From positions 1-44,734 of the forward strand of contig JAGWYG010000020.1 in assembly GCA_018969485.1 (NCBI GenBank): a DNA stretch of 44,734 nucleotides, written 5' to 3'. Both the position numbers and the translations under genes were made by a program. The DNA is from Chloroflexota bacterium (lineage in GTDB: Bacteria; Chloroflexota; Chloroflexia; Chloroflexales; Roseiflexaceae). Shown piece by piece: positions 16,313-44,734 of this stretch. Each line of letters starts with the position of its first letter. Positions within the stretch are counted from its first letter, which is position 1. The notes below the pieces were generated by a model. It did no database searches and was not told the DNA's origin. It worked only from the letters and a program-made list of their open reading frames with translations.

Positions 16313-17638
16313 TCAACGATGCACCGTGCGTGCGCCTGATCGCCCGCGGTGCTGCCTCAGCGCACGCGCACCGAGCGTCACCGCCAGCAGCGCGATGCCC
16401 CACCACGGGAGCCCTGAGCTGGTCTCCGGCAGACTTGCCGCAGGTGGTACCGCTTTTGATGACAGCGCCTGCGCACTGGGCGTGACGGCGACGCTGGGCG
16501 TGGCGATGACGCTGGGCGTGGCGATGACGCTGGGCGTGGCGATGACGCTGGGCGTGGCGATGACGCTGGGCGTGGCGATGACGCTGGGCGTGGCGATGAC
16601 GCTGGGCGTGGCGGCGACGCTGGGCGTGGCGGCCGGGCTATCGACGGTGACGCTGACGAGCGATGAGAACAGCGGGGCAGGTACGCCGGTGAATACCAGT
16701 TGCGACTGCGCCGTGATCACGTCGCTGGCAGCGACGCCAGTGCGCACCATCACCTGGATCTGCAGCTCGATCGCCTCGCCAGATGCGAGGCGCGGCACCA
16801 GTGCCCGCACATGCTGACCACTGACCAGGGCGACGCCCCCCGCTGCGGGCATGTAGTCGGGCGCAAACGCGGCAGACTCAACCGACAGCGCGTCGGGCAA
16901 GACGCTCGACAGCTGTACCTCGTCGAGCGCACGCTCGGGATGATCATTCATGACCATCACGTAGTACGTCAGCGGCTGGTCAGCATACACGGTCGACCAG
17001 TCGCTGGTCATGGTGAATGCCAGGTCGCGCGTCACATCGAACGGTGCCAACTCGGGCGTGGCCAAACCCGCGGTGGCCGTGGTCGCGACACCATCGACCG
17101 CCACGCTGAGCGCAGGTGAGCGTGCCGAGAAGTTGCGCTCGTCGAGCGCTTCGGCCTGAAGCACCAGCGCCGGGGGCGGTTGCACGGCATCGGCGCTGAG
17201 CGTGACGGTGACGGTAGCGTCGGTGGCGCGGCCCGCGGTGACGTCGCAGGCGATCTGCATGGCATCGTAGCTGCAGCTTCCGCCGGCGGCCTGCGCCGAC
17301 TGCACCACCGCGCCGCGGCCGAGCGGCATGCGGAGCGCCACGCGAACCGGCGTCGCGGCGTCGCCGGACACGACGAAGCTGAACGCGACCGGCTGGCCCG
17401 GTGCGATGCTGTTCGCGGCGACCTGCCCCGTGACGCGCAGCGGCGCCGCGGCATCGGTGGGCTGTGGCTGGGCCGCCGGCGCGAGCGGCGGATCGACCCA
17501 GCGCCAGATCTCGCCGGCGAGCGGCATGATGATCAACCCGATGCTGAGCAGCACCAGTATCACCTCGTAGCGCGTCCAGCCGGTGCTGCGTGGCACCGGC
17601 CTGGCGATCGTCCGACTGGTGCGTGGGCGCAAGGGCAT
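16313..17638 (-). CDS. LPETS-bearing surface stalk protein with DUF11-like domains
   Basis: 441-residue membrane-anchored surface protein and probable substrate of the sortase encoded just upstream. A signal-anchor segment lies at residues about 24-42. Two beta-sandwich regions follow (about 60-185 and 195-335, DUF11-like, with Cys122 and Cys131 a possible disulfide). Residues 338-390 are a Thr-Pro-Ser stalk of nine hexapeptides, six of them identical (TPSVIA). The C-terminus is a classic sorting-signal layout: LPETS (403-407), a hydrophobic segment (409-427) and a basic tail (RQHRGRSGAR). The last motif residue is Ser rather than Gly. AGGAGG five bases before the ATG supports the start. The gene begins 9 bases after the sortase stop. 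Confidence 0.85.
   Translation of the reverse strand: MPLRPRTSRTIARPVPRSTGWTRYEVILVLLSIGLIIMPLAGEIWRWVDPPLAPAAQPQPTDAAAPLRVTGQVAANSIAPGQPVAFSFVVSGDAATPVRVALRMPLGRGAVVQSAQAAGGSCSYDAMQIACDVTAGRATDATVTVTLSADAVQPPPALVLQAEALDERNFSARSPALSVAVDGVATTATAGLATPELAPFDVTRDLAFTMTSDWSTVYADQPLTYYVMVMNDHPERALDEVQLSSVLPDALSVESAAFAPDYMPAAGGVALVSGQHVRALVPRLASGEAIELQIQVMVRTGVAASDVITAQSQLVFTGVPAPLFSSLVSVTVDSPAATPSVAATPSVIATPSVIATPSVIATPSVIATPSVIATPSVIATPSVAVTPSAQALSSKAVPPAASLPETSSGLPWWGIALLAVTLGARALRQHRGRSGARTVHR
16485..16628 (-). repeat. 18-bp in-frame tandem array coding for the TPSVIA stalk
   Basis: Six perfect 18-base copies (16503-16610, unit GCGATGACGCTGGGCGTG on the plus strand) are flanked on each side by a copy that differs mainly at the variable codon. 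Each unit codes for Thr-Pro-Ser-Val-Ile-Ala on the minus strand. The identity of the copies at the DNA level implies recent expansion or homogenisation. Confidence 0.97.
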
Positions 17639-17647
17639 GGCGACCTC

Positions 17648-18469
17648 CTATCGGCCGATCGGTACGGCAGCGGCGAGACGGGCGGCGACCACCAGTCGGC
17701 GGGTGTCCCAGTCGGTGCAGGTCAGCAGCACGAGCGTCGGCTCGGCACGCGGCGCGAGGACCTCGACGTGTGTCGGCAGGACGCTGAAGATCTCGGTGAC
17801 GCGATAGGTGTAGCGCCAGCCGTCGGCATCGACGAGGATCTCGTCGCCGATGGTGATCGCGCCCAGATCGCGAAAGACGGCCCCGCGCACGCCGGCGTGA
17901 CCAGCCAGCGCCATGGTGCCTGGCTCGCCGGGGCGCCCGGTTCCATGAAGGTATCCGGCGATGTCGTCGAGCACCTGCCATGCGCCGTCGACGATGCGCA
18001 TCTCGCCGACGGGGGTGTCGAGCCCGATCGCCGGCACCACGAGCCGCTCGGGGGCGCTGGTGTGCGCCACCGGGCGTGGCGCGACGTCGCGTCGGCGCGG
18101 CGCGACGAACTCTGCCGGTGCAGGTGGTGCCGCGCGGGAGGGCAATGGCACGCTGGCGACGGCCGCTGGCGCGGCGGGCGGCGGCTGCGCGGCGATCTGC
18201 GCCACCGCCGGCTGTGACAGCACGCCGCGCCACCACGGATAGAGCGGCCCTTCGATCGTCCAGTGCGCCAGCAGAAGGACCAGCGCCAGCGCTGCGCCGC
18301 GCTCGAGTGCCACCAGGAGTGTGGCGATCTGGTCGGGGGGGCGCCGCCCGAGTGCCCCCGCGATCAGCGACTGCCGGGCGACGCCGGCGTGCGCCACCGG
18401 TGGCATCGCCAGCAGGCCACGCAGCATTCGCGTCGGATCGTCTGAGACCGTCCTGATTCGCCGGCGCAT
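17648..18469 (-). CDS. Sortase (cysteine transpeptidase)
   Basis: 273-residue sortase that cuts a sorting motif in surface proteins and joins them to the cell envelope. A membrane segment lies at about 50-70, a Pro/Ala-rich linker at about 95-135, and the sortase barrel at 140-273. The catalytic triad is visible as His191 in LAGHAG, Cys251 in LLTCTDW and Arg257 or Arg258. The N-terminal extension before the membrane helix (about 50 residues) is longer than usual. GGGGAG seven bases before the ATG supports the start. The next gene carries an LPETS sorting signal, so the pair is a dedicated enzyme-substrate cassette. The exact sortase class cannot be assigned by eye. Confidence 0.92.
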   Translation of the reverse strand: MRRRIRTVSDDPTRMLRGLLAMPPVAHAGVARQSLIAGALGRRPPDQIATLLVALERGAALALVLLLAHWTIEGPLYPWWRGVLSQPAVAQIAAQPPPAAPAAVASVPLPSRAAPPAPAEFVAPRRRDVAPRPVAHTSAPERLVVPAIGLDTPVGEMRIVDGAWQVLDDIAGYLHGTGRPGEPGTMALAGHAGVRGAVFRDLGAITIGDEILVDADGWRYTYRVTEIFSVLPTHVEVLAPRAEPTLVLLTCTDWDTRRLVVAARLAAAVPIGR

Positions 18470-18525: not shown

Positions 18526-18554
18526 ATTATAGCCGCAGCATCTGCGCCGCGCAA
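18526..18554 (-). promoter_or_regulatory. Promoter of the sortase cassette
   Basis: On the minus strand TATAAT (18526-18531) is a consensus -10 box, and TTGCGC (18549-18554) is a weak -35 box 17 bases upstream. The sortase ATG lies about 57 bases downstream, leaving a short leader. Confidence 0.65.
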
Positions 18555-43565: not shown

Positions 43566-44734
43566 GTGAGTCCCGAACGATTACAAAAAGTCCTGGCGAC
43601 AGTGGGGGTCGCCTCGCGCCGTGATTGCGAGCTGCTCATCGCCGAAGGGCGCGTGATGGTGAATGGCCGTGTGGTCACCATCCCCGGCACGCGGGTGGAC
43701 CCCGAGACCGACGAGATCACCGTCGATGGCACGGTGCTCGGTCGTGCCGAACCGCGGACCTATGTGGTGCTGCACAAGCCAGAGAACGTCGTCTCAACCG
43801 TTGACGATCCCCAGGGACGACCGACGGTGATCGATCTGGTCGATGTCCCGGCGCGGGTGTTTCCGGTCGGTCGGCTTGATCTCGACAGTGAAGGATTGCT
43901 GATCCTGACTGACGATGGCGAGTTGACGCAGCGCCTGACGCATCCGCGGTTCAACATCGAGAAAGAGTATCGAGTCCTGCTCGATCGTGCACCTGACGAG
44001 GATGTGATTCGTGAGTGGCGCGAGGGCGTGCTGCTCGAAGGTGAGCCGACGGCGCCAGCCTGGGTGGAGCTCCTGACCATCACTGACGACGGCGCGTGGG
44101 TCAGGGTCGTGCTGCGCGAGGGCCGGAAGCGCCAGATTCGCGCGGTCGCGCAACTGCTGGGATACATGGTCCTGCGCCTGATCCGTGTGCGTGAGGGGCC
44201 GTTGCGCCTGGGTGATCTGCCGTCGGGAACATGGCGACGGCTGTCTGATGATGAGGTCGCTGCGCTGTACGCGCACGCGGCGGAACTGGAGCGTGAGAAG
44301 TTGTCCGAAGATCGACGTGAGGAGCGCGCTGCACGGCGCGACCGGATCCGGCGCGTGGTGCGCCCCGGCCAGCGGGCTGTGCCTGCGAGCGCTGATGAGG
44401 ATCCGACCCGGGAGGCCGATGCCCTGACTGCGTATGATGATGATGTGGCGCCGTTGCCCGTCGTCGAATCAGGTGCTGCATCGCCCCAGATGGCGGCGCC
44501 CGCCGCGGATGACCAACCGGCGCCCGATGGTATCGTGGATGCCGACGATGATGCGTCGCATGCGGCCGAGCCTGATGATGCTGGTGATGACGACGATGAG
44601 CAGCCCTCGTCGACCCGTGCGCCGTCGCGGCGTGAGGGCGGCTACGGCAGCCCGCGGCGCGAGGGCGGCTACGGCGGCCCGCGGCGCGACGATGGCCCGC
44701 GGCGCGAGGGTGGCTTCGGTGGCCCGCGACGCGA
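43566..44734 (+). CDS. rluB: RluB-type 23S rRNA pseudouridine synthase with disordered tail (3' truncated)
   Basis: Pseudouridine synthase of the RsuA/RluB family that modifies rRNA. An S4 RNA-binding domain is at residues about 3-60 (RLQKVLATVGVASRRD). The catalytic Asp105 sits in VGRLDLDSEGLLILTDDGEL; KEYRVLLD, EGRKRQIRAV and LIRVREGPLRLGDLPSGTWR complete the catalytic domain. From about residue 250 the chain becomes a low-complexity tail: a charged helix, then Asp/Ala/Pro-rich acidic sequence, then RREGGYG-type repeats that run off the window, so the protein is incomplete here. GTG is supported by GAGGAG five bases upstream. RluB versus another RsuA-family member is not certain. Confidence 0.92.
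   Translation, partial: MSPERLQKVLATVGVASRRDCELLIAEGRVMVNGRVVTIPGTRVDPETDEITVDGTVLGRAEPRTYVVLHKPENVVSTVDDPQGRPTVIDLVDVPARVFPVGRLDLDSEGLLILTDDGELTQRLTHPRFNIEKEYRVLLDRAPDEDVIREWREGVLLEGEPTAPAWVELLTITDDGAWVRVVLREGRKRQIRAVAQLLGYMVLRLIRVREGPLRLGDLPSGTWRRLSDDEVAALYAHAAELEREKLSEDRREERAARRDRIRRVVRPGQRAVPASADEDPTREADALTAYDDDVAPLPVVESGAASPQMAAPAADDQPAPDGIVDADDDASHAAEPDDAGDDDDEQPSSTRAPSRREGGYGSPRREGGYGGPRRDDGPRREGGFGGPRR
44628..44734 (+). repeat. RGG-like tail repeats of the pseudouridine synthase
   Basis: In-frame units of about 27 bases code for RREGGYGSP, RREGGYGGP, RRDDGP and RREGGFGGP before the window ends. The pattern matches RNA-binding RGG/YGG boxes. The total number of units cannot be known here. 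Confidence 0.9.

Follow-up and report, generated by a model that had tools for sequence, protein, structure and literature searches.

The window, i.e. the whole stretch of 44,734 nucleotides analysed here (contig 51 of a 4.02-Mb genome, 95.6% complete), carries a sortase gene and the gene of a protein with a C-terminal sorting signal, which very probably form a two-gene operon whose sortase cleaves its own substrate and joins it to the wall. What is observed directly is the pair of genes, the anatomy of each, and their adjacency and joint conservation. The pair represents an order-wide system of a sortase with its own substrate, in which a residue other than glycine at P1' of the sorting motif is the rule and in which the substrate possibly has the topology of a tether. 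The sole statement on Chloroflexus sortases found in the open-access literature dates from 2006 and mentions one sortase-like protein, with 'no evidence that it acts as a sortase' (PMC1586193).

The sortase gene (17648..18469, minus strand, stop codon included) encodes 273 residues. It matches PF04203 with E=3.6e-26 and a score of 91.8 bits, against a curated cut-off of 26.6; the gene is real, with the coordinates and the gene order that had been claimed. This is the single PF04203 match of its own genome. The catalytic domain spans residues 143-265 (17675..18043, minus strand). Three residues, His191 (17897-17899), Cys251 (17717-17719) and Arg258 (17696-17698), all on the minus strand, are the catalytic residues and are invariant in an alignment of 25 sortase homologues. 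The original prediction had named His191, Cys251 and Arg257/258; the first two and Arg258 stand, but not Arg257, since position 257 is Gln in most relatives and Arg in the window sequence. A low-confidence model, from which only the helix call was kept, places an N-terminal membrane helix at about residues 46-72 (18254..18334, minus strand). The structure prediction, made from two alignment rows, reached a pLDDT of 43 and was not used for a fold search. The region of about 45 residues ahead of this helix is conserved and probably cytoplasmic.

The substrate gene (16313..17638, minus strand, stop codon included) encodes 441 residues. Its N-terminal membrane segment, beta-domains and repeat stalk, as read in the original prediction, were all recovered on the minus strand. 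Model and alignment place a membrane helix at about residues 21-48 (17495..17578; model helix 23-48), with a W-T-x-x-E ... P-L signature, and a first beta-sandwich domain at about residues 67-165 (17144..17440), in which Cys122 and Cys131 are invariant. They are followed by a DUF11 domain at residues 205-306 (16721..17026; PF01345, E=9e-11), which is matched by 14 of 17 substrate homologues, and by a TPSVIA repeat stalk (16476..16631; 18 nt x 8.7). The LPETS sorting motif occupies residues 403-407 (16418..16432), with a predicted cleavage between T406 and S407, and the hydrophobic helix and basic tail claimed behind it are found at residues 412-441 (16316..16405; model helix 412-431). This C-terminus, LPETSSGLP...RQHRGRSGARTVHR, is conserved in 44 distinct homologues of the window's order; the C-terminal sequence of the substrate is SLPETSSGLPWWGIALLAVTLGARALRQHRGRSGARTVHR. 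PF00746 (Gram_pos_anchor) gave no match above its cut-off in the own genome, the window substrate included. The structure model of the substrate is usable for the N-terminal helix and the first beta-domain only, with a pLDDT mostly of 63-84 over residues 81-150. The fold search pointed to no function; its matches were generic beta-sandwiches, one of them being the CLIPPER adhesin domain 9ifr (E 0.015, TM-score 0.57 by target length). In another Chloroflexota species, DUF11 domains are the 'beads' of a surface filament (PMC13319060), which fits a structural, extended role of the substrate.

Both ends of the substrate are better conserved than its ectodomain. In the substrate alignment, the sorting motif reaches a mean pairwise identity of 0.68, the tail 0.61 and the N-terminal helix 0.51, compared to 0.35-0.40 for the two beta-domains and 0.30 for the stalk. 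As the best-conserved segment of the protein, the sorting signal goes beyond chance. At the other end, W21, E25 and P39 are invariant in 18 sequences from two orders, and the signature W-[T/S/A]-x-x-E ... P-[L/V] is common to the substrates of both.

The sortase comes first and the substrate gene lies downstream, with a gap of 9 bases that had been given correctly by the original prediction. The Shine-Dalgarno sequence of the substrate gene, AGGAGG (17644..17649, minus strand), overlaps the sortase stop codon, AGGAGGT sharing bases with the TAG. This overlap suggests that the two genes are translationally coupled, and they are probably co-transcribed. A consensus TATAAT promoter of their own had also been proposed, which is partly borne out. 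An exact TATAAT is present as a -10 hexamer in the intergenic region upstream of the sortase ATG at 18469 (18526..18531, minus strand); the window has 3 such hexamers where 0.71 would be expected. However, the best -35 at 17-nt spacing is a poor one, TTGCGC (3/6), and the consensus promoter scanner reported a different, weak site.

We then turn to other genomes, where the sortase was found in 62 of the 82 genomes of the order with the family profile, and the substrate in 60 of the 82 with the C-terminal sorting-signal profile, the latter giving exactly one strong match per genome having a substrate. Strong matches to both were present in 55 genomes, to neither in 15, to the sortase only in 7 and to the substrate only in 5. 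The seven sortase-only loci are all fragmentary or close to the end of a contig, and in one of them (L175) a divergent LPETSTGFG partner adjoins the sortase; the three substrate-only loci inspected, out of five, have frames that run off the contig. Eleven of the 15 genomes with neither gene belong to one small-genome genus of the same family (g8, with G008, G011, G018, G020, G021 and others). Peptidoglycan synthesis genes are kept in five of five tested g8 genomes without strong matches to the pair and, as these genomes still make peptidoglycan, a wall does not require the pair.

The two genes are adjacent in four families of the order and in a sister order, and the sortase adjoins a sorting-signal protein in almost all cases where the contig continues. 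The intergenic spacing is mostly -4 to +34 nt, the few larger values, up to about 130 nt, being due to start-codon choice or to real gaps. In neighbourhoods of up to 20 kb from 12 other genomes, no third partner was found across families: the neighbouring genes differ between families and the pair alone is common. A search of contigs with a single-protein query found one locus; the nearest genome is the uncultured Chloroflexi MAG LaPlata_bin-0339, of the same genus, with a sortase 70% identical. In the maximum-likelihood tree, the sortases of the order form one clade (98/97), separate from the other sortases that the same genomes encode, and the window sortase falls among those of its own genus and family. 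This single clade and this placement suggest vertical inheritance, and the sortase and its partner were apparently passed on in this way in the window's order and the sister order. The gene pair that had been expected in relatives is thus found in the sister order and in 55 of the 82 genomes of the window's order. No substrate homologue lacks the sorting signal: all 44 distinct C-termini of the order have it, as do all 5 of the sister order. Sortase homologues do stand beside such proteins, the exceptions being additional paralogues in three of the order's genomes (L065:2521-3513, minus strand; L180; L181), beside which no sorting-signal gene was found. More distant sortases of the phylum (e.g. 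in G245 and G070) have no adjoining sorting-signal gene. Since the pair is common to the whole order and the sister order, covalent protein anchoring in Chloroflexota becomes testable in relatives with complete genomes.

The 44 distinct substrate C-termini of the order, counted after seven chance matches had been removed by eye, follow the pattern [L/N]-P-x-T-(not G)-x-G, usually continued by [V/I]-P, with Pro at P3 and Gly at P3' in all 44. The P1' residue is Ser in 35, Arg in 3, Asn in 3, Glu in 2 and Asp in 1, and Gly in 0/44. The original prediction had proposed a non-standard motif with Ser for Gly; the absence of Gly is borne out, but Ser itself is not the specificity, S, R, N, E and D all being found. 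The five genomes of the sister order carry the same pair with LPKTGGELP, LPASGGELP, LPQSGGELP (two) and IPKSGGELP, i.e. with Gly at P1' in 5/5. Their canonical LPKTG form supports the homology of the LPxTS site to the LPxTG sorting motif, and the simplest reading of these sequences is that the Gly of a canonical LPx[T/S]G would have been lost when the window's order arose, P1' becoming permissive afterwards. The two orders offer a natural before-and-after comparison (P1' Gly versus non-Gly) for the change of a sortase leaving-group residue. On the enzyme side, the Cys-to-Arg stretch of the order reads CTNWDTQR or CTAWDTQR, with CTDWDTRR for the genus of the window, while the sister order has CTPVGLATRR, and Asp255 (Cys+4) is invariant in the 25 aligned sortases. 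In class A sortases this stretch contacts P1', and S. pyogenes SrtA has Glu212 at Cys+4, near the P1' Ser (PMC9520033). By analogy, we infer that the order-specific stretch and Asp255 may be linked to the non-Gly P1'. Both LPxTS and LPxTR have been reported as variant motifs in S. uberis (PMC2657157), and a P1' Ser makes a competent sortase substrate, which spySrtA binds and processes (SrtA-LPATS structure, PMC9520033). LPxTS itself is already reported in streptococci; the order-wide absence of a P1' Gly is the new part.

Comparison with the class A-F models gave no assignable class: by the NCBIfam cut-offs, the window sortase fits none of the named classes, and the generic sortase model is the sole one above its cut-off. 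The best class score is that of class E (NF033747), with 61.7 bits against a cut-off of 160, and classes D, C and F are all below theirs (45.3/165, 44.8/160 and 42.9/166 bits, score/cut-off). The same NCBIfam families are matched by all 25 sortase members. Of the Streptomyces class E sortases (SrtE1, SrtE), SrtE1 shares with the window sortase a conserved N-terminal region before the membrane helix (PMC5148588). However, a hallmark Tyr in the beta3/beta4 loop of class E reads Ala at P3, and its position in 5go6 aligns with Arg195, invariant in the window sortase family; class E substrates carry LAxTG, whereas those of the window's order carry LPxT. The best solved-structure match of the family profile is 4d70 of Clostridium perfringens (E=1.5e-22), which we take to be a class D sortase, its entry itself saying only 'sortase family protein'. 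The window family differs from 4d70 in its Cys-to-Arg stretch, in its substrates and in its low score with the class D model. One sortase for one substrate, as here, is also the arrangement of Staphylococcus aureus SrtB and IsdC (PMC3297441). The motif of the class B enzyme SrtB is NPQTN, and a divergent family of the present set (f3) uses NPATN; nevertheless, no class B model is among the NCBIfam matches of the window sortase and, unlike IsdC, the window substrate combines DUF11/Ig-like domains with a conserved N-terminal membrane helix and has no NEAT domain by Pfam. Streptococcal class A sortases accept LPxTS, as here (PMC2657157, PMC9520033), but in streptococci it is a minority motif of a general housekeeping enzyme, whereas in the window's order a non-Gly P1' is the rule and the enzyme adjoins its substrate.

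Further substrates were sought in the whole own genome, as had been proposed, with the C-terminal profile, the N-terminal profile and PF00746, and no second convincing substrate was found by these profiles, which diverged signals can escape. The N-terminal signature profile gives one strong protein per genome, which is the substrate. With the same profile, second proteins were found in three genomes of the same family (L192:2545-3855, minus strand; L193:2613-4208, minus strand; L194:3379-4845, plus strand), presenting a WTxxE N-terminal helix and LPNTS, LPSTS or LPDTG followed by a helix. A conserved, coiled-coil-like tail of about 50 residues, probably cytoplasmic, follows this C-terminal helix. 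No sortase was found near the three genes, and the C-terminal profile caught one of the three proteins, weakly. The description of the pair as 'dedicated' agrees with the own genome, as far as profiles see, but is qualified by the second LPxT[S/G] protein of these three genomes.

The cleavage, its site and the acceptor are predicted from established sortase biochemistry. After export, the N-terminal helix of the substrate would sit in the membrane, its two beta-domains and the Pro/Thr-rich stalk would lie outside, and its other end would be held by the C-terminal helix and basic tail. The membrane-anchored sortase, with His191, Cys251 and Arg258, would cut between T406 and S407, form a thioester with the substrate and pass it on to a cell-wall amino group, probably that of L-ornithine in peptidoglycan or lipid II. 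The own genome has genes for penicillin-binding proteins and Mur ligases, and L-ornithine is the usual peptidoglycan diamino acid in members of the phylum, including Herpetosiphon (PMC3368417), which makes the ornithine side-chain amine, or a bridge attached to it, the likely nucleophile.

Other roles for the two proteins were considered. It is unlikely that the sortase mainly serves other proteins in trans, the adjacent gene being one of several substrates: the second proteins with the same signature in three genomes of the family would suit such a role, but the own genome has no other convincing substrate by profiles, and most genomes of the order show the adjacent substrate only. Could the C-terminal LPxTS region instead be a relic, in a protein that stays as an unprocessed double-pass membrane protein? 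The non-canonical P1' points that way, and so does the tail, whose conservation extends right to its end, as would be unusual in a peptide that is thrown away. We nevertheless hold this to be very improbable, as [L/N]-P-x-T is kept in 44/44 substrates of the order, the neighbouring sortase has all its catalytic residues, and a P1' Ser is bound and processed by spySrtA (PMC9520033). There is hardly any likelihood that the sortase is a class C-like pilin polymerase whose substrate polymerises into a fibre; its weak class C similarity (NCBIfam 44.8 bits, cut-off 160) and the Ig-like domains of the substrate would be in keeping with this, but the cassette has no second pilin subunit gene. Pilin polymerisation was also rejected at the level of the lysines: the window substrate has a single one, K395 in the stalk region, and its homologues do not keep their lysines at common positions.

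For the preferred operon with cleavage and wall attachment, the fate of the N-terminal helix allows two topologies. If the helix is retained and the C-terminus is joined to the wall, the substrate would be a covalent membrane-to-wall tether, not a freely displayed surface protein. We propose this topology tentatively, rating it as possible and somewhat short of probable, because conservation is higher in the N-terminal helix than in the ectodomain; such a link would be unusual. On this reading, the C-terminus would be joined to ornithine-containing peptidoglycan, and the order would have exchanged LPxTG for LPxT-(not Gly)-x-G along the way. To our knowledge, Chloroflexota have no recognised lipid outer membrane and their envelope is poorly understood. 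The chances are close to even that the helix is a cleaved signal peptide with WTxxE...PL as a targeting code, which would leave a conventional one-end wall anchor and retain the sortase reaction. Many homologues have an AxA-like sequence (APAQ, APAA) after the helix, and in cocci the YSIRK-G/S motif already shows that signal peptides of sortase substrates can contain a conserved motif (PMC7644249, PMC3297441). However, the helix is unbroken to residue 48 in the model, and W21, E25 and P39 are kept in both orders. In the window substrate, about a dozen residues also separate the AxA-like A53-P54-A55 from the end of the hydrophobic core, a distance that exceeds the usual signal-peptide c-region.

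Additionally, a 1514-aa frame with three DUF11 domains was noted in the own genome (G000, contig 61, 61725-62729; L113), with no sorting signal found in the fetched stretch. In another genome (G042), a 301-aa protein on a 340-kb contig (L147:5684-6589, minus strand), near another sortase match, ends with FPVTASDDG, a helix and PRRLA; this end appears to be a different, sorting-like signal. Near the contig end, the window contains a 27-nt tandem repeat (44626-44689; 2.4 copies, 94% match).
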